The notes under the pieces were generated by a model. It searched no databases. It was not told the origin of the DNA and was given only the letters and a program-made list of their open reading frames with translations. From Peptococcaceae bacterium (GTDB lineage: Bacteria; Bacillota; Desulfotomaculia; Desulfotomaculales; Pelotomaculaceae), in the NCBI GenBank assembly GCA_012518875.1, contig JAAYRI010000040.1:1-43643 (forward strand): DNA of 43,643 nucleotides. Direction: 5' to 3'. Numbering within the stretch: the stretch's first letter is position 1; every line of letters starts with the position of its first letter. A program made the translations under genes and the position numbers. Below are positions 2,773 to 12,515 of this stretch, piece after piece.

Positions 2773-2920
2773 AACAGGATGTTACACTGAGGACGGGTGG
2801 AGCAATAAGGAAAACAAAATATGCATGGCTTCGAAACAGGTAAACAAGATAAGCTAGAAATAACACTTGGTGACACACTGGCAATACTATCGGTTTTGGG
2901 AGGCTTCCGGAGGTTATGAG

Positions 2921-3745
2921 ATGAGTTTTCTGATCGGTTTGTTAGCGGGGACCTTTGGTGGCCTCGTAGGTCTGGGCGGCGGGGTAATCATGATCCCCTT
3001 AATGGCCGGCCTGTTAAAGATAGGACAACACAAGGCTCATGGCACCAGCCTGATTGCCCTTGTATTCACCGGGACAATGGGTGCCGCAACCTATGCTTTA
3101 CAAGGCAACATTGATGTTTTGGCATCTTTGTTGTTGGCTTCCACAGCAGTTTTTACAGCCCGGTTTGGGGCAAATTTTGCCCACTCCCTACCGGAATGGA
3201 AATTGGAAAAAGCCTTTGGCATATTTCTGCTCCTAATCACTATACTACTGCTGCTGAAACCCTTCTTGCCCCAGCCCCAGGCTGTGGACACTGCTTTAGG
3301 ACTGTCCTGGGGGAAAATACTGGTTTTATTGCTAACGGGGGTATTTACCGGCTTTTTGTCCGGCATGATGGGAGTTGGAGGAGGGACAATCATGGTCCCG
3401 GCAATGGTTTTACTGGCTGGGTTTACACAATATACCGCCCAGGGCAGCTCCCTTTTGGCCATGATACCAGCCGGTGGGGTAGGAGCATATACACATTGGC
3501 GTCTGGGTAATGTACATAAAGGCACCCTTATCGGACTTGTGCCCGGTATCCTCACCGGTACCTTTACCGGAGGCAACCTGGCTCATTTTGTTGCTGAAGA
3601 TCACCTGCGTATGATATTTGCAGCAGTACTGGTATGGACCAGTATACGCTATTTAAAGACACCACTGCCCGACAAGCAAAAGGAAAGGGAAACAAAAACA
3701 AAAAACAGAGGTGAACCACATGCTGGCAAGGGAGATTATGAATAA
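2921..3745 (+). CDS. TauE/SafE-family membrane permease
   Basis: An integral membrane protein of 274 residues with about eight hydrophobic segments and the duplicated architecture of the TauE/SafE (DUF81) family. Each half begins with a glycine-rich motif: GLVGLGGGVIMIP near residue 15 and GMMGVGGGTIMVP near residue 150. Family members export or import sulfite, sulfoacetate, sulfolactate and related organosulfur anions; the substrate here is not determinable. ATG 2921 was chosen over the open frame beginning at 2867 because GGAGG lies eight bases upstream and the protein then begins directly with the first membrane segment. The 3' end overlaps the following CBS-domain gene by 26 bases, implying translational coupling. 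Confidence 0.88.
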   Translation: MSFLIGLLAGTFGGLVGLGGGVIMIPLMAGLLKIGQHKAHGTSLIALVFTGTMGAATYALQGNIDVLASLLLASTAVFTARFGANFAHSLPEWKLEKAFGIFLLLITILLLLKPFLPQPQAVDTALGLSWGKILVLLLTGVFTGFLSGMMGVGGGTIMVPAMVLLAGFTQYTAQGSSLLAMIPAGGVGAYTHWRLGNVHKGTLIGLVPGILTGTFTGGNLAHFVAEDHLRMIFAAVLVWTSIRYLKTPLPDKQKERETKTKNRGEPHAGKGDYE

Positions 3746-4190
3746 AAATGTGATTACTATTCCAGAAGGTGCTTCCATTGAAGAGGCAGCCCTAATTCTA
3801 ACGGAAAACAACATCTCTGGCGCCCCGGTAGTAAACCCGAAAGGGAAGCTGGTAGGTATGGTAACTGAGGAGGATCTGCTGCACCAGGAAACAAATCCCA
3901 GGGCACCGGCCTTCCTGAATATCCTTGGTGCTTTTATTTATGTTAATGGGTTGGAAAGATACCGGGATGACTTTAAAAAGCTAGCCGCCACCAGTACCAC
4001 TGAGATTATGACCAGGGATTTAATCACCGCCCCTGGGAATATCACTATTGAGGAGGTAGCGGCACTGATGATCGAACACAATATTAAACGGGTGCCGGTA
4101 GTTGATCATGGTGACATCATTGGTATCATCAGCCGGGCAGACATCATCAAAACCCTGGCTAAAAAAGCCCCGCCTCAGCAAAATAGATAG
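3720..4190 (+). CDS. Tandem CBS-domain protein
   Basis: A 156-residue protein made almost entirely of two CBS domains (about residues 5-60 and 95-150) joined by a linker containing the AFLNILGAFIYVNG stretch typical of stand-alone CBS proteins. Such pairs bind adenine nucleotides (AMP, ATP, SAM) and act as energy or ligand sensors. The ATG at 3720 is preceded by AGAGGTGA, so it is favoured over the in-frame GTG at 3711 that overlaps this ribosome binding site. The gene starts inside the TauE/SafE gene, so the two proteins are probably made together; a regulatory role for the permease is an inference from this overlap. Confidence 0.9.
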   Translation: MLAREIMNKNVITIPEGASIEEAALILTENNISGAPVVNPKGKLVGMVTEEDLLHQETNPRAPAFLNILGAFIYVNGLERYRDDFKKLAATSTTEIMTRDLITAPGNITIEEVAALMIEHNIKRVPVVDHGDIIGIISRADIIKTLAKKAPPQQNR

Positions 4191-4491: not shown

Positions 4492-5271
4492 TTGATCACA
4501 GAATTGACAATCCTACCCGGTTTTAACAAGGTGGGTGTTAGAGAGGGTTTTTCCAAAATTACCTTATCAGCAGGGGAAACAGTGTCAATAGTAGGCCCTA
4601 CCGGCAGCGGCAAGACCGCCTTTATTACAGACATAGAACTTTTAGCCCAGGAGGATACAGCCACTAAGCGCAAGGTGTTGGTAAACGGACTTGTTCCTGA
4701 TGATGGGGTTAGATGTAATCCCTGCCGCAAACCTATTGCCATGATCACCCAGAACACAAAATGCTTCGCTGACCTTTCATCAGAAGAATTTCTACGGATA
4801 CATGCCCGGGCCCGAGGCATAAAAGACAATAGTGTTGTAGATGAAACCATTGAATTGGCCAATAAGTTTACTGGAGAAAAAATAAAAAACAATTCACGGG
4901 TTACTGTTCTCTCCGGCGGGCAAACCCGTTCTCTACTAGTTGCTGATGCCATTTTAATCGGTGCTTCACCGGTAATTCTACTTGATGAAATAGAAAATGC
5001 GGGCATTTTTAAGCAAGAGGTTCTTAGAATTATCCAAAACACAGGGAAAATAATTGTTTTTGTCACCCATGACCCGGTAATAGCACTTTTAACTAAAAAG
5101 AGGATCATCATGCAGAATGGGGCCGTTAAAAAGGTAATTATTCGCAGCGATCTGGAGGTAACAGCGGCCTACAATTTATTGGAGTATGACAAAAAAGTAA
5201 GCATTATAAGGGAAAGACTGAGGACAGGAAAAATGATTACCGAAGAATTGGTATCTGCAAGCCTTGCTTAA
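4492..5271 (+). CDS. ABC-type ATPase of unknown function (permease-less)
   Basis: A 259-residue ATP-binding-cassette ATPase. Visible motifs are Walker A GPTGSGKT (35-42), a Q-loop glutamine near 87, signature LSGGQ (140-144), Walker B with D165-E166 and the H-loop histidine near 193. A CNPC pair (cysteines 75 and 78) sits between Walker A and the Q-loop, which is unusual and could bind metal. There is no membrane gene in the operon, so a transport role is doubtful. The TTG start is preceded by GGGGGCG. It is the first of three tightly spaced genes (GTPase, then Fe-S protein), all with non-ATG starts. By context it may power assembly or insertion of a metal centre; that role is inference. Confidence 0.8.
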   Translation: MITELTILPGFNKVGVREGFSKITLSAGETVSIVGPTGSGKTAFITDIELLAQEDTATKRKVLVNGLVPDDGVRCNPCRKPIAMITQNTKCFADLSSEEFLRIHARARGIKDNSVVDETIELANKFTGEKIKNNSRVTVLSGGQTRSLLVADAILIGASPVILLDEIENAGIFKQEVLRIIQNTGKIIVFVTHDPVIALLTKKRIIMQNGAVKKVIIRSDLEVTAAYNLLEYDKKVSIIRERLRTGKMITEELVSASLA

Positions 5272-5295
5272 CAAAAAAACAGGTGGTGTATAAAA

Positions 5296-6006
5296 GTGAA
5301 ACTCCTTGTAATAGCTGGCCCCCCATCTTCAGGAAAGACTTCTTTGGTCAAACAAATCGTTAAAAAAATGAAACATGAAATGAAAATAGCTTTCTTCAAA
5401 ATAGACGTGGTAAAAGCCTTCGAGGATGTGGAGTTAAATAAAGAATTTGGCATATTGGCCAGAAAATTTATTTCCGGTGACCTCTGCCCCGACCATGCCA
5501 GTGTAATGGTACTTGGTGATGCTGTGGAATGGGCAGAAACAAACGGGGCAGAACTGTTTATTGTAGAAAGCGCCGGTCTCTGCCTGCGTTGCTCCCCTTA
5601 TCTAAACCAGGGACTGGGAATCATCGTCCTCAGTTCTATTGCCGGTATTCATGCACCGGAAAAAATGGGCTGCATGGTCACCCTGGCAGATATCGCAGTG
5701 GTAACAAAAATTGACCTGGTAAGCCAGGCTGAAAGAGAGGTTTTGGTGCAAAAAATAAAGGAAACCCACCCAGATTTAATCCTTATGGAAACCAATGCGC
5801 TCCAGGGAACATCACTACACCGACTATATGAAATAATAAGAAAATCCGGTGATATTGACGCTGAAACCCTGGTTTTAAAAGGAAACCCACCCCTCGGCAC
5901 CTGTACAATCTGTGTCGGCAAAAAGGAAATTGGTTGGAAACATCACTTTGGGGTGATTCAAAAACTCGATGGGCAAACCGCGGAATACCTTTACAGAGGT
6001 GAATAG
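5296..6006 (+). CDS. HypB/UreG-like P-loop GTPase
   Basis: A 236-residue SIMIBI-class GTPase resembling the nickel metallochaperones HypB and UreG. The P-loop GPPSSGKTS is at residues 8-16, a TKID guanine-specificity motif lies near residue 136, and the family-like SGDLCPDHAS segment lies near residue 60. Three cysteine features could bind metal: the cysteine in that segment, a CLRC motif after VESAG, and CTIC near the C-terminus. The GTG start has a GGTGG ribosome binding site. It lies 24 bases after the ATPase gene and two bases before the Fe-S gene, indicating one operon. It is not true HypB or UreG because no hydrogenase or urease gene is nearby; the client protein is unknown. Confidence 0.8.
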   Translation: MKLLVIAGPPSSGKTSLVKQIVKKMKHEMKIAFFKIDVVKAFEDVELNKEFGILARKFISGDLCPDHASVMVLGDAVEWAETNGAELFIVESAGLCLRCSPYLNQGLGIIVLSSIAGIHAPEKMGCMVTLADIAVVTKIDLVSQAEREVLVQKIKETHPDLILMETNALQGTSLHRLYEIIRKSGDIDAETLVLKGNPPLGTCTICVGKKEIGWKHHFGVIQKLDGQTAEYLYRGE

Positions 6007-6008
6007 AT

Positions 6009-6656
6009 TTGTCTAAGAAACTGACATGGCTTCCACCGGGTAAAAACTGTGGCCAGTGTGGCGAGAAGAGCTGCATAAGTTTTCTACGCATGGTCGATTC
6101 TGGAAACAAGGGTCTTTCTGATTGTCCCTTCTACACAGAAAACATTGGCAAGCCTTATGGTAGCGGGACAAACGAAACTGCCTATACTGGCCTTGACATG
6201 CTGGGACACCCCTATGATTTTGTTCTTCATCCGCTACCGGGTGAGGTATCCGCCCGTAAAATAGTGCTCCCCTTTCGTGCGGACATGGTGGAGGTAATGG
6301 ATATAAAAAAGGGTGATATTGTACTTGGTAGACCAATGGGAGCAGGATGCCCCATACCCCATGTTTTGCGGGTGATCAAGGCAGAATGGCAGACAGGGTT
6401 GCTGTACACCTGGGTAGTGGGCCCAAAATATTCCCGTGATAGGGAGGTAAAAGATGTAGTAGCCTACCACATGATTGGGTTTGAAGGTCTGGCCAAAAAC
6501 ATCCGCAAGGAGCCCTCCTTCGGCTGCCGGGCATCATTTTTACCAGGTTTCTGTATGATGGCCCTAAACCATACAGGGCTAGTAAACATGCTCCTGGAAA
6601 AGAACTGTGGGCTCCATATACGGATTGAAGACATTCATCTCCTGGCCGGCAAGTAA
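6009..6656 (+). CDS. Fe-S protein with CdhE/RnfB-like cysteine motif, function unknown
   Basis: The 215-residue protein opens with a motif CGQCGEKSC followed about 20 residues later by a fourth cysteine in DCPFY. This matches the four-cysteine [4Fe-4S] domain found in the corrinoid protein CdhE/AcsC and in RnfB (the Pfam FeS family, PF04060). The rest, including GRPMGAGCPIPHVL near residue 115 and several more cysteines, is not a domain I recognise. The TTG start lies eight bases after AGAGGTG. It ends the three-gene operon and is followed by a terminator. Context suggests it is the scaffold, carrier or target of the ATPase and GTPase; that is inference. Confidence 0.75.
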   Translation: MSKKLTWLPPGKNCGQCGEKSCISFLRMVDSGNKGLSDCPFYTENIGKPYGSGTNETAYTGLDMLGHPYDFVLHPLPGEVSARKIVLPFRADMVEVMDIKKGDIVLGRPMGAGCPIPHVLRVIKAEWQTGLLYTWVVGPKYSRDREVKDVVAYHMIGFEGLAKNIRKEPSFGCRASFLPGFCMMALNHTGLVNMLLEKNCGLHIRIEDIHLLAGK

Positions 6657-6691: not shown

Positions 6692-6719
6692 AGCTGTCAT
6701 GGAGACAGCTCTCTTTTTT
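6692..6719 (+). terminator. Intrinsic terminator after the Fe-S gene
   Basis: AGCTGTC (6692-6698) pairs with GACAGCT (6704-6710) across a five-base loop and is followed by CTC and six T residues. It terminates the three-gene operon immediately before the convergent yitT stop codon. Confidence 0.85.
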
Positions 6720-9798: not shown

Positions 9799-10557
9799 TT
9801 AATTTATAATATCAATTACCGGGTTGTCGTCGATTGCTGACCCCAAAATAACACTACTAATTCTGCCCCCTAGCAACAGCCGGGCCAATTTGTACACTGC
9901 TGCCCTGTTAACCAGAAGGTCCACCTTATTTATGAAAGCAACAATTCTGGCTGTGGAAGGACAGGTGCGCAAAACCCCCCGGGGATGCCTAACTAGCCCG
10001 GCAATAGTCTCAGCATCTATTACCGCCCCGGGCTTTAGCCCGGTCATCTGGGTAACTATTTGCAAACGATGTACGGTATCATCATTAAGGGTTCCGCCAA
10101 TAGCGTCAGCCCCGATGACCAGAATTAACACTGTTGTAAACTGAGGGATGACTGGTTCATGATCAAGATAGCCTTTGAAGGAACGCCCCTTTGAACCGTC
10201 AGCTTCTATTAATACATAATCAGTCATACTGTAATTTTCGCTTATTAGCTGATCTAATTTTTCAGCACCGAAACCTTTGATTTTATTATTGGGCACCAAC
10301 CGCAACCCCAAAATTGGTCTGATTCCAGCCCCAACGGCAGCTTGCAGTATCTCTATTACTGGTGCCTGATTTGATAGCAACACTACAGGATGCTTGTCCT
10401 TTGTCGGTCGAAATATTTTGGTTGTTGTAGTTATTATTACCCGCCGGCTATCAGGGATTTCTTCGTTTAAACGAAACATCAGTGTCGTTTTGCCGCCACC
10501 ACCAACAAATGATACGACTTCCCGATCCGACAGGCCCAGGGCCTCCATTATTTTCAC
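9799..10557 (-). CDS. yqeC: Selenium-dependent molybdenum hydroxylase accessory protein YqeC
   Basis: A 252-residue P-loop protein of the YqeC family, with GGGGKTT at residues 19-25 of the chosen frame and the conserved EADGSKGRSFKGY segment. YqeC is found beside YqeB and selenium-dependent molybdenum hydroxylases and is thought to help make or insert the labile selenium centre; its biochemistry is not settled. GTG 10557 was chosen because AAGGA lies eight bases upstream and it begins one base after the yqeB stop; the frame is open further upstream into yqeB but without a ribosome binding site. It is the last gene of the molybdenum hydroxylase operon. Confidence 0.88.
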   Translation of the reverse strand: MKIMEALGLSDREVVSFVGGGGKTTLMFRLNEEIPDSRRVIITTTTKIFRPTKDKHPVVLLSNQAPVIEILQAAVGAGIRPILGLRLVPNNKIKGFGAEKLDQLISENYSMTDYVLIEADGSKGRSFKGYLDHEPVIPQFTTVLILVIGADAIGGTLNDDTVHRLQIVTQMTGLKPGAVIDAETIAGLVRHPRGVLRTCPSTARIVAFINKVDLLVNRAAVYKLARLLLGGRISSVILGSAIDDNPVIDIIN

Positions 10558-10558
10558 G

Positions 10559-11377
10559 TTATTTATCCTTATTGCCTTTGTTGGAAAGGTAAGTACATAT
10601 AGCCTCCAGGGCGCCGCCACCCACAGCAAGGGCCTTGTCTGATATAGTATAGCAATATTCCTTTTTGCCCCGGGGATCAATATCACCAATTTTCATGCCT
10701 CTAGATACCCGGGTGCCGGCCCTAATCATGCCCCTGACAACACCCGCAATTTCCGCCAGCAAAGATGTGCCCCCAACAGTAAGGAGTTTTTCTCCCTTTT
10801 GTACCAAGTCTCCAATATTGCGCAACGGCTCTACTACCCCATCAGCCGGTGCTCTTAAAAGCCTTTCTGTCCCGTAGCCCATTACAACACCAGGCACACC
10901 TGTGTCGGGGATAGCTTGCCCTTCATACAGAACTCGACCCAGATAATGCCCCCTCTTTGTTTCCACTACGGCGTGAACATCAACACCAGCCGTTAATCCG
11001 GGCCCCAAACCGATAACCAGGGGGGCATCATTTATGCTGGTACCGATATTTTTTTTAGCCATCACCCCATCTATTAAAACCAATGGTTTTAGTTGGTTTA
11101 CCACTACAGCTTGGGGATCTATGAGTAATGGTACCTTGCCGTTCTCTAATAATTGTTGGGCTTTTTCTCTATCTTCCGCCAGGACAGCCTCTATCCTCTC
11201 TACCCTCGTTGAACCGGTATAGACTGCTTCCGCAAAGGAAGCCGTCCGTCTTACTACCAGGGGCTGGGGCAACTCCGTCATTAATACCCGAAAACCACTT
11301 CTAAAAAGACGCCAGGCGCATCCTGTGGCCAGATCCCCAGCACCCTTAATTACCACCAACTGCCCTACATAGCTCAA
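10559..11377 (-). CDS. yqeB: Selenium-dependent molybdenum hydroxylase system protein YqeB
   Basis: A 272-residue protein of the YqeB (EF2563) family, a marker for molybdenum hydroxylases that carry a labile, non-selenocysteine selenium. The N-terminus has a Rossmann-like GAGDLATG motif at about residues 13-20, and the C-terminal half contains GYGTERLLRAPADGVV and a biotinyl-like segment rich in glycine and valine. The start is TTG 11377, eight bases after GGAGG. The first 32 bases overlap the end of xdhC, implying translational coupling; yqeC follows after one base. The exact reaction is unknown; selenium dependence of the neighbouring enzyme is inferred from family co-occurrence. Confidence 0.88.
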   Translation of the reverse strand: MSYVGQLVVIKGAGDLATGCAWRLFRSGFRVLMTELPQPLVVRRTASFAEAVYTGSTRVERIEAVLAEDREKAQQLLENGKVPLLIDPQAVVVNQLKPLVLIDGVMAKKNIGTSINDAPLVIGLGPGLTAGVDVHAVVETKRGHYLGRVLYEGQAIPDTGVPGVVMGYGTERLLRAPADGVVEPLRNIGDLVQKGEKLLTVGGTSLLAEIAGVVRGMIRAGTRVSRGMKIGDIDPRGKKEYCYTISDKALAVGGGALEAICTYLSNKGNKDK

Positions 11378-12515
11378 AAGGTTCACCTCCGTAGAATATT
11401 TCAGCATAGCTGCTTACTGGTTCAACGAAAACCTCTATCGCTCCGCCACATACCATGCCGTCTGTAACTGCTATATCTGCATCCATTGATACCTTATAAA
11501 TCATCGGCAAATAGTCATTAATGACGTTTATGGCCCGCATTTTGATTTCATGCTCTGCATAGCCGCCGCCAATGGTACCGCAGGTACGGCCATCCCTATA
11601 TACAAGCATCCTGGCCCCAGCCTTACGCGGCGTTGATCCGACGGATTTAACTACAGTGGCCATCGCCGCCGGGATGTTTTCACTGGCTGCCTTCACTGCC
11701 TTTCTCAAAATTTCCTGGTCTACAGCTTTTGGCATTTCACCAGTGTTCAGTCTCTTTTCTTTGGGCAGACTACCATATTTAAGGGAATGGCCCTTGCCCC
11801 CCCGCCGGGCCTTTACCAGCTCGGCAGCAATACTGATGGCAATTTCCTCAGGGGTTTGAGCCCCGATATCCAGACCAACAGGCATGTATATGGAGTCAAC
11901 CAAATGACGATCAAAACCCTGGTGCATGAGCCCATCTTTAATCATCCCCACCTTGCGACTACTCCCCACCATACCGATGTAGGCCACAGGATATTTGAGT
12001 ACCTTTTGCAGACATTCCAGATCGTGCCGGTGGCCGCGGGTAACAATAATGACACTACTTCGCAGGCTAAAATCGAGATGCTCCTCAATGTATTCAAAGC
12101 TGGAGGAGACACCTCTGTCCGCAGCGGGAACATGCTCGAAGGAAACAAATTCTGGCCGGTCATCAAACACAGTCACATGGTAACCCAACAGGTGGCCGGC
12201 CGCCGCCAGAGGTTGGGCAATATGCCCCCCTCCCAGGATGATCAATTCACATGGTGGGAAATAGGGTTCAACCATCACTTCTACCCTTTCATCCGGCCTG
12301 ACTGGATTGTGAAGGCTGACAACCTTAAATTCCCCGCTGGCTAAAACCTTCCCTGCCTGTTCTGCTGCCTGGGTGTCCAACCACATCAACCCCAGGCTGC
12401 CTGCTTCTTCATCTATAGTAAAGGCTTTTTTCCTCCCAGCCAGGTTGCATGACAATCCTTTCTGACCTACAACCGTCACAATAACAATTTCCTGATTTAG
12501 TTTGAATATACCCAT
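11346..12515 (-). CDS. xdhC: XdhC/CoxI-family molybdenum hydroxylase maturation protein, unusual domain order
   Basis: XdhC proteins bind the molybdenum cofactor, promote its sulfuration and insert it into xanthine-dehydrogenase-type enzymes. In usual members a CoxI domain precedes a Rossmann domain. Here (389 residues) a degenerate CoxI-like segment (about 1-85) is followed by the Rossmann domain, with LGGGHIAQPLA near 95-105 and TRGHRHDLECL near 159-169, and then by an intact CoxI domain with SVGSTPRKAGARML (291-304), GTIGGG (313-318) and GMVCGGAIEVFVEP (353-366). The ATG has a GGGAGG ribosome binding site. It overlaps yqeB. The extra C-terminal copy may replace function lost from the N-terminal one. 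Confidence 0.88.
   Translation of the reverse strand: MGIFKLNQEIVIVTVVGQKGLSCNLAGRKKAFTIDEEAGSLGLMWLDTQAAEQAGKVLASGEFKVVSLHNPVRPDERVEVMVEPYFPPCELIILGGGHIAQPLAAAGHLLGYHVTVFDDRPEFVSFEHVPAADRGVSSSFEYIEEHLDFSLRSSVIIVTRGHRHDLECLQKVLKYPVAYIGMVGSSRKVGMIKDGLMHQGFDRHLVDSIYMPVGLDIGAQTPEEIAISIAAELVKARRGGKGHSLKYGSLPKEKRLNTGEMPKAVDQEILRKAVKAASENIPAAMATVVKSVGSTPRKAGARMLVYRDGRTCGTIGGGYAEHEIKMRAINVINDYLPMIYKVSMDADIAVTDGMVCGGAIEVFVEPVSSYAEIFYGGEPFELCRAVGGN

Follow-up and report, generated by a model that had tools for sequence, protein, structure and literature searches.

A conserved ATPase, GTPase and Fe-S protein operon probably tied to sulfonate biosynthesis in Firmicutes and methanogens, with a possible role in sulfite supply

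Three adjacent genes, coding for an ABC-type ATPase (A), a HypB/UreG-like GTPase (B) and an Fe-S protein (C), recur as a unit in Firmicutes and in methanogens, and their link to sulfonate biosynthesis is well supported and, in our judgement, probable. In Firmicutes, the trio tracks the phosphosulfolactate synthase ComA, adjoins comA or comAB, avoids ATP sulfurylase (Sat) within the set of ComA-positive genomes, and occurs in genomes without ComD and MMP16, an association which is new. The reading we prefer, at a probability of roughly 0.4, is that the trio forms a self-contained system of strict anaerobes, in which A and B load a metal onto C or energise it, and C makes or delivers sulfite for sulfonates. 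We infer both sulfite as the product and the loading of a metal, and taken by itself the sulfite role falls somewhat short of even odds. The stretch of DNA analysed (the window, 43,643 nucleotides) makes up an entire contig of a MAG with a completeness of 79.8%.

The window contains the three tightly spaced open reading frames as originally described (Table 1), separated by 24 bases (A/B) and 2 bases (B/C) and starting with TTG, GTG and TTG, respectively. Judging from the translations of relatives, several of which start with ATG, the non-ATG starts are no conserved trait. Among the NCBIfam models shown, no match to A, B or C exceeded the cut-off of its model, and a promoter scan gave no signal above chance. 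Upstream of the operon, at 2867–4190, a TauE/SafE-family transporter gene overlaps a gene coding for a protein with two CBS domains; the same two genes also precede the trio in L003 and L039. Positions 9799–12515 of the minus strand carry genes for YqeC, YqeB and a protein of the XdhC family, which are accessory proteins of selenium-dependent molybdenum hydroxylases.

Table 1. Features of the operon in the window, with the basis for each assignment
Feature	Position	Strand	Basis
A: ABC-type ATPase, 259 aa	4492..5271	+	ABC_tran, 54.1 bits (cut-off 25); conserved as the leading gene of the trio
B: HypB/UreG-like GTPase, 236 aa	5296..6006	+	PF02492 (cobW/HypB/UreG), 44.2 bits (cut-off 20.7); HypB structures are the best full-length solved relatives
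B: codons of C64, H67, C96, C99, candidate metal site	5485..5592	+	Invariant; aligned to C, H, C of HypB 2hf8
B: codons of C-terminal C203xxC206	5902..5913	+	Invariant
C: Fe-S protein, 215 aa (COG2000 is the label used in PMC12068725)	6009..6656	+	PF04060 FeS domain, residues 10–41, 34.8 bits (cut-off 23); alignments A1, A4
C: [4Fe-4S] motif C14, C17, C22, C39	6048..6125	+	Invariant in 13 diverse rows; fold match to CFeSP N-terminal domain
C: C114, H118, C182, H188, candidate second metal site in the beta-barrel domain	6348..6572	+	Invariant in 13 diverse rows and in 65 rows
Terminator-like hairpin 3' of the operon	6692..6710	+	Consensus match, followed by a T run

The A protein had been described as an ABC ATPase without a permease but with a CNPC pair. 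Its domain match and the lack of a permease gene beside A in the window agree with the first part of this description, whereas the CNPC pair is not conserved: it is present in 3 of 15 aligned sequences, i.e., in the window and two close relatives only, and was rejected as a metal site because of this confinement to the nearest relatives. B, as foreseen, belongs to the family of the nickel-insertion GTPases HypB and UreG and has conserved cysteine pairs. Residues C64, H67, C96, C99, C203 and C206 were invariant in the alignments, even in paralogues, and a single weak pairwise alignment (E 0.00022) places C64, H67 and C96/C99 at the C, H and C of HypB 2hf8, the best solved full-length match; in HypB, these positions bind metal. 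However, B differs from both HypB and UreG in that it scored below the cut-offs of the HypB equivalog TIGR00073 (63.5 bits; cut-off 121.2) and the UreG equivalog TIGR00101 (35.8 bits; cut-off 204.2), has an invariant CxxC near its C-terminus, and is paired with an ABC ATPase and an Fe-S protein. Paralogous pairs of GTPase and ABC ATPase with other partners were found at L043:5822-8272 (contig C70 of the window genome), L162–L169 and L183–L185; the third partner of such pairs is an SBP_bac_6 protein or a DUF1858-SBP_bac_6 protein, and a Prismane-family (hybrid cluster protein-like) gene follows the pair in L166. The GTPase and ABC ATPase pair looks like a general module with an exchangeable third part, and since it is found with other partners, the A/B step may be generic.

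C matches PF04060 at its N-terminus, and the predicted [4Fe-4S] motif of the CdhE/RnfB type was thus recovered. The similarity to RnfB and to CdhE/AcsC, the large subunit of the corrinoid/iron-sulfur protein, extends over about 45 residues, whereas the remainder of C, for which a beta-barrel is predicted, does not match a corrinoid domain. All four cluster cysteines, as well as C114, H118, C182 and H188, were invariant in 13 diverse rows with identities down to 31%, and the latter four also in 65 rows of the C-terminal domain; this set could hold a metal. The 65 rows (alignment A6) comprise the window and 64 stretches, their source being 75 stretches kept from 89 loci, with short, identical and stop- or N-bearing ones dropped; alignment A1 of C comprises 22 sequences out of the 40 loci described below and the window, and alignments A2 and A3 contain 16 and 15 sequences, respectively, the latter including a paralogue. 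The C-terminal domain was modelled as an all-strand, beta-barrel-like structure with a pLDDT of 94.6. Comparison with solved folds gave no clear match (best E value of 0.25 with Foldseek in the PDB; best Z score of 5.5 with VIA), and viral structures did not match at E ≤ 0.001, which does not establish a new fold. Selenocysteine in C, considered for four loci flagged with one TGA each, was rejected: the alignment of L128 meets a stop in its last columns, those of L138, L139 and L141 meet none (tblastn), and the flags were read as ordinary gene ends.

Scanning of genome contigs with C yielded 40 loci, 36 bacterial and four from methanogens, and in 38 of these A, B and C occur in the same order and on the same strand. 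The other two are incomplete: the stretch containing B is masked by N in L032, and the contig of L034 starts inside the operon. The original prediction had named conserved co-occurrence of the three genes elsewhere as its check; they do recur, and in the same order, so that the arrangement is not due to chance. Among the hosts are Pelotomaculum, Thermincola, Heliophilum and further Firmicutes, and on the archaeal side Methanofollis and Methanospirillum. In a sample of 249 genomes of one phylum, the Firmicutes, C was detected at E < 1e-100 in 20 genomes, the next matches being short FeS-domain matches at about 1e-6; genomes are called trio-positive in all counts below on this C match, and several genomes belong to both the 40-locus set and the 249-genome sample. 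The eight genomes of the window's own order all lack the trio, indicating a patchy distribution. Among 146 archaeal genomes, a close C was present in 22 (E < 1e-70), and a further 18 contained a diverged C (E 1e-41 to 1e-17). A tree of A and B was calculated from 38 of the 40 loci and the window, leaving out L032 and L034, in which A or B is missing. On this tree, the trio of L037 nests among Firmicutes, yet the record is titled Desulfovibrio sp., which may reflect mis-binning or transfer.

The original prediction held that no known client is adjacent. Across the loci, in contrast, the recurrent neighbours are sulfonate genes, namely, comA and comB in bacteria, and genes for MMP16, a cysteate synthase-like protein and ComD in archaea; in the window, none of comA/comB, the Met genes mentioned below, or the MMP16, cysteate synthase-like, comD and HcyBio genes was seen adjoining the trio. 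The fetched stretches of nine of the 36 bacterial loci contain comA, and comA or comAB is located directly upstream of the trio in five of the 36; in L011 and L021, comB separates comA from A. An apparent comA end at the contig edge of L028 (weak match, G274:C61:3-74) is outside the count of nine. The comA-linked loci stand at three places of the A+B tree when read by eye; a treekit count, from which ungrouped rows are omitted, gave one change. The gene order of L026 is comA-A-B-C-DUF441 and that of its trio-less relative L101 is comA-DUF441, which looks like an insertion of the trio into a comA-DUF441 locus. In Methanomicrobiales, an HcyBio-domain gene directly follows the trio in four of four loci, and a cysteate synthase-like gene and comD come next in all three loci whose contig extends that far.

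Some further genes were observed near the trio or near comA. In Firmicutes, comA often has flanking genes for an MFS transporter and a DUF441 protein (L094–L113 and L188–L197; judged by eye, save for DUF441 in L101). L008, L017 and L027 all have a gamma-carbonic-anhydrase-like gene upstream of the trio, together with varying sets of DUF364/DUF4213, Nitro_FeMo-Co and Mrp/MinD-like genes, of which DUF364 and FeMo-Co were checked in L008 and the rest assigned by eye.

Using the family models PF02679 (ComA), TIGR03845 (ComD) and TIGR03287 (MMP16, coenzyme M synthase), ComA was found over cut-off in 86 and Sat in 48 of the 249 genomes; genomes with below-cut-off matches only (G135 and G190 for ComA, G066 and G185 for Sat) were scored negative. 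ComA is present in 18 of the 20 trio-positive Firmicutes genomes vs. 68 of the 229 trio-negative ones; conversely, the trio occurs in 18 of 86 genomes with and in 2 of 163 genomes without ComA (Fisher, 1.3e-7, a value which ignores kinship, same-family genomes not being independent). Within the ComA-positive genomes, the trio is carried by 17 of 55 Sat-negative but by only one of 31 Sat-positive genomes (p 0.002), whereas the association of trio and Sat alone over all 249 genomes was not significant (p 0.14). A contrast of this kind is seen within family f17, where the four ComA-positive genomes with the trio lack Sat and the two without the trio have it. The two trio-positive genomes without ComA are that of the window (G000, the 79.8% complete MAG), whose nearest relative L039 does have ComA in its genome, and G056, which is 99% complete and a real exception; G061 carries trio, ComA and Sat together. 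In the 40-locus set, 34 of the 36 bacterial genomes and none of the four methanogens contain ComA; L019, one of the two ComA-less bacterial genomes, is on the tree the sister of L013, which has ComA. ComD scored over cut-off in none of the 20 bacterial trio-positive genomes vs. seven of seven archaeal genomes (27 chosen genomes), and MMP16 in none of the 20 vs. 13 of 14 archaeal genomes (34 chosen genomes), so MMP16 was rejected as the client in bacteria. Lacking both, these bacteria cannot form coenzyme M by the archaeal route, and the need they share with the archaea lies upstream of sulfoacetaldehyde.

A counterpart of the archaeal gene set has been depicted before. The legend of Fig. 2 in PMC12068725 (2025) lists genes for an ATPase, a Ni2+-binding GTPase and a COG2000 Fe-S protein beside methanogen coenzyme M genes, and states that the “putative role remains unknown”. 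The three kinds of genes are the same, and the archaeal relatives found here likewise have MMP16, cysteate synthase-like and comD genes as neighbours; that legend, however, covers archaea only and gives no role, while the trio described here occurs in Firmicutes without ComD and MMP16 and is linked to comA and comB. The original statement that no named system has this composition therefore stands as far as a name is concerned, but the archaeal set itself had already been pictured. A search of the open-licence part of PubMed Central yielded no description of the bacterial set, its comA link or any function of the trio.

Coenzyme M synthesis requires sulfite, yet most methanogens are sulfite-sensitive and use sulfide for growth. 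The source of this sulfite is treated as open in PMC3448663 and PMC6286981, where a reverse-acting siroheme reductase is offered as a guess. ComA uses sulfite and phosphoenolpyruvate (PMC3087415), and archaeal cysteate synthase uses sulfite and phosphoserine (PMC12713407); the need shared by the two enzymes points to sulfite supply. A pairing of operons with a similar logic is known from Bacillus subtilis, whose YitA, YitB and YisZ are sulfate-assimilation enzymes, i.e., a dedicated source of sulfite. According to PMC517825, the operons yitBA-yisZ and yitCD are both inferred to act in the synthesis of phosphosulfolactate, and sulfolactate makes up 5% of the spore dry weight. Like the trio, yitBA-yisZ is a partner operon of phosphosulfolactate synthesis; in contrast to it, the trio encodes unrelated proteins and occurs where Sat is mostly absent. 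Sulfite as shared substrate, the operon pairing in B. subtilis, the scarcity of Sat and the open sulfite source of coenzyme M together led us to propose the trio as a provider of sulfite.

In the mechanism we envisage, C would be the working protein, joining a CFeSP-like [4Fe-4S] domain to a beta-barrel with a possible metal site. A and B, at the expense of ATP and GTP, would load this site or keep C active, much as HypB and UreG load nickel; the HypB-type Cys/His/Cys positions of B and the cluster motif of C make metal handling plausible. Starting from sulfide or a different reduced sulfur species, loaded C may then make or deliver sulfite, to be fixed into a sulfonate by ComA in bacteria or by cysteate synthase in Methanomicrobiales, with sulfolactate and coenzyme M, respectively, as presumed end sulfonates. 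Organisms which activate sulfate would obtain sulfite that way, and they mostly lack the trio. A more specific version, namely, that C oxidises sulfide or persulfide to sulfite in an ATP/GTP-dependent reaction common to coenzyme M-forming methanogens and sulfolactate-forming Firmicutes, with neither sulfate activation nor a reversed siroheme sulfite reductase, appears doubtful. The trio cannot be the sole source of sulfite, since 38 of the 55 genomes with ComA but not Sat lack it, and both G056 and G061 count against the sulfite role. Moreover, ComA is linked with sporulation in B. subtilis (PMC517825), and shared ancestry could therefore account for part of the bacterial signal; the sulfonate connection as such is maintained because of the independent archaeal linkage and the physical linkage of comA and trio.

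Alternatively, the trio could mature or activate an enzyme of the sulfonate pathway, with a metal- or Fe-S-containing client and no formation of sulfite. The HypB-like character of B with its conserved Cys/His residues is consistent with this, as is the position, by coordinates, of the gene for the Fe-S metalloprotein MMP16 less than 5 kb away from C in 10 of 13 archaeal genomes with MMP16 over cut-off. Yet the bacterial hosts lack MMP16, there is no Pfam family common to ComA and cysteate synthase, and 68 of the 86 ComA-positive genomes do without the trio, indicating that ComA does not need it; we consider an enzyme-maturation role unlikely.

Quite unlikely, too, is a function in sulfur amino acid metabolism or general sulfur trafficking, involving homocysteine or persulfide, of which the sulfonate link would be a by-product. 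MetY, MetA or MetH genes, and not comA, are located near the trio in five of the 36 bacterial loci, and in L148 an inserted class V aminotransferase gene resembling cysteine desulfurases separates B from C (L148:2177-3340, minus strand). HcyBio is present in 15 of 20 trio-positive vs. 25 of 60 trio-negative genomes (80 of the 249, chosen as all 20 positives and 60 negatives weighted to relatives), but this fits worse than ComA: five of the 20 trio-positive genomes lack HcyBio, for which reason HcyBio/DUF39 was rejected as an obligate client, and the eight trio-less genomes of the window's order all possess it.

A trio which senses, sequesters or detoxifies sulfite near sulfite-using enzymes, rather than making it, would account for the same sulfite-centred neighbourhood and, in the window lineage only, for the TauE/SafE-family transporter gene upstream. 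We regard this as improbable, as 17 of the 18 genomes with trio and ComA are Sat-negative, where less sulfite is expected.

The original prediction of a metallocofactor maturation system, recalling the activation of nickel or corrinoid enzymes, holds with respect to the trio being a gene unit of its own with a HypB-family GTPase and a cluster motif in C; the nickel, CO or corrinoid client does not agree with the sulfonate neighbours. Activation of CODH/ACS, a hydrogenase or a corrinoid methyltransferase would be compatible with the CFeSP-type FeS domain of C and with the genes for a UroD-type methyltransferase and a RACo-like activator which, along with MetY-like genes, accompany the trio in L005 and L031. 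Among the neighbours identified in the 40 loci, however, there is no recurrent client of this type, and 10 of the 20 trio-positive genomes are devoid of a second CdhE-type FeS-domain match (E ≤ 0.001), which makes a constant association with the corrinoid protein of CODH/ACS unlikely and the activation of nickel or corrinoid enzymes very improbable overall. It is scarcely credible that A serves as the ATPase in an ABC transporter with a permease encoded elsewhere, for while its ABC_tran domain is ordinary, the operon is without a permease gene in all 38 complete copies, and A travels together with B and C even across domains of life.

With the trio proposed as a sulfite provider, a compact three-gene candidate common to methanogens and Firmicutes is at hand, by which the source of sulfite for coenzyme M becomes directly testable. 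If the proposal is true, it would also provide the first function for the widespread pair of ABC ATPase and HypB-like GTPase that recurs with other partners.
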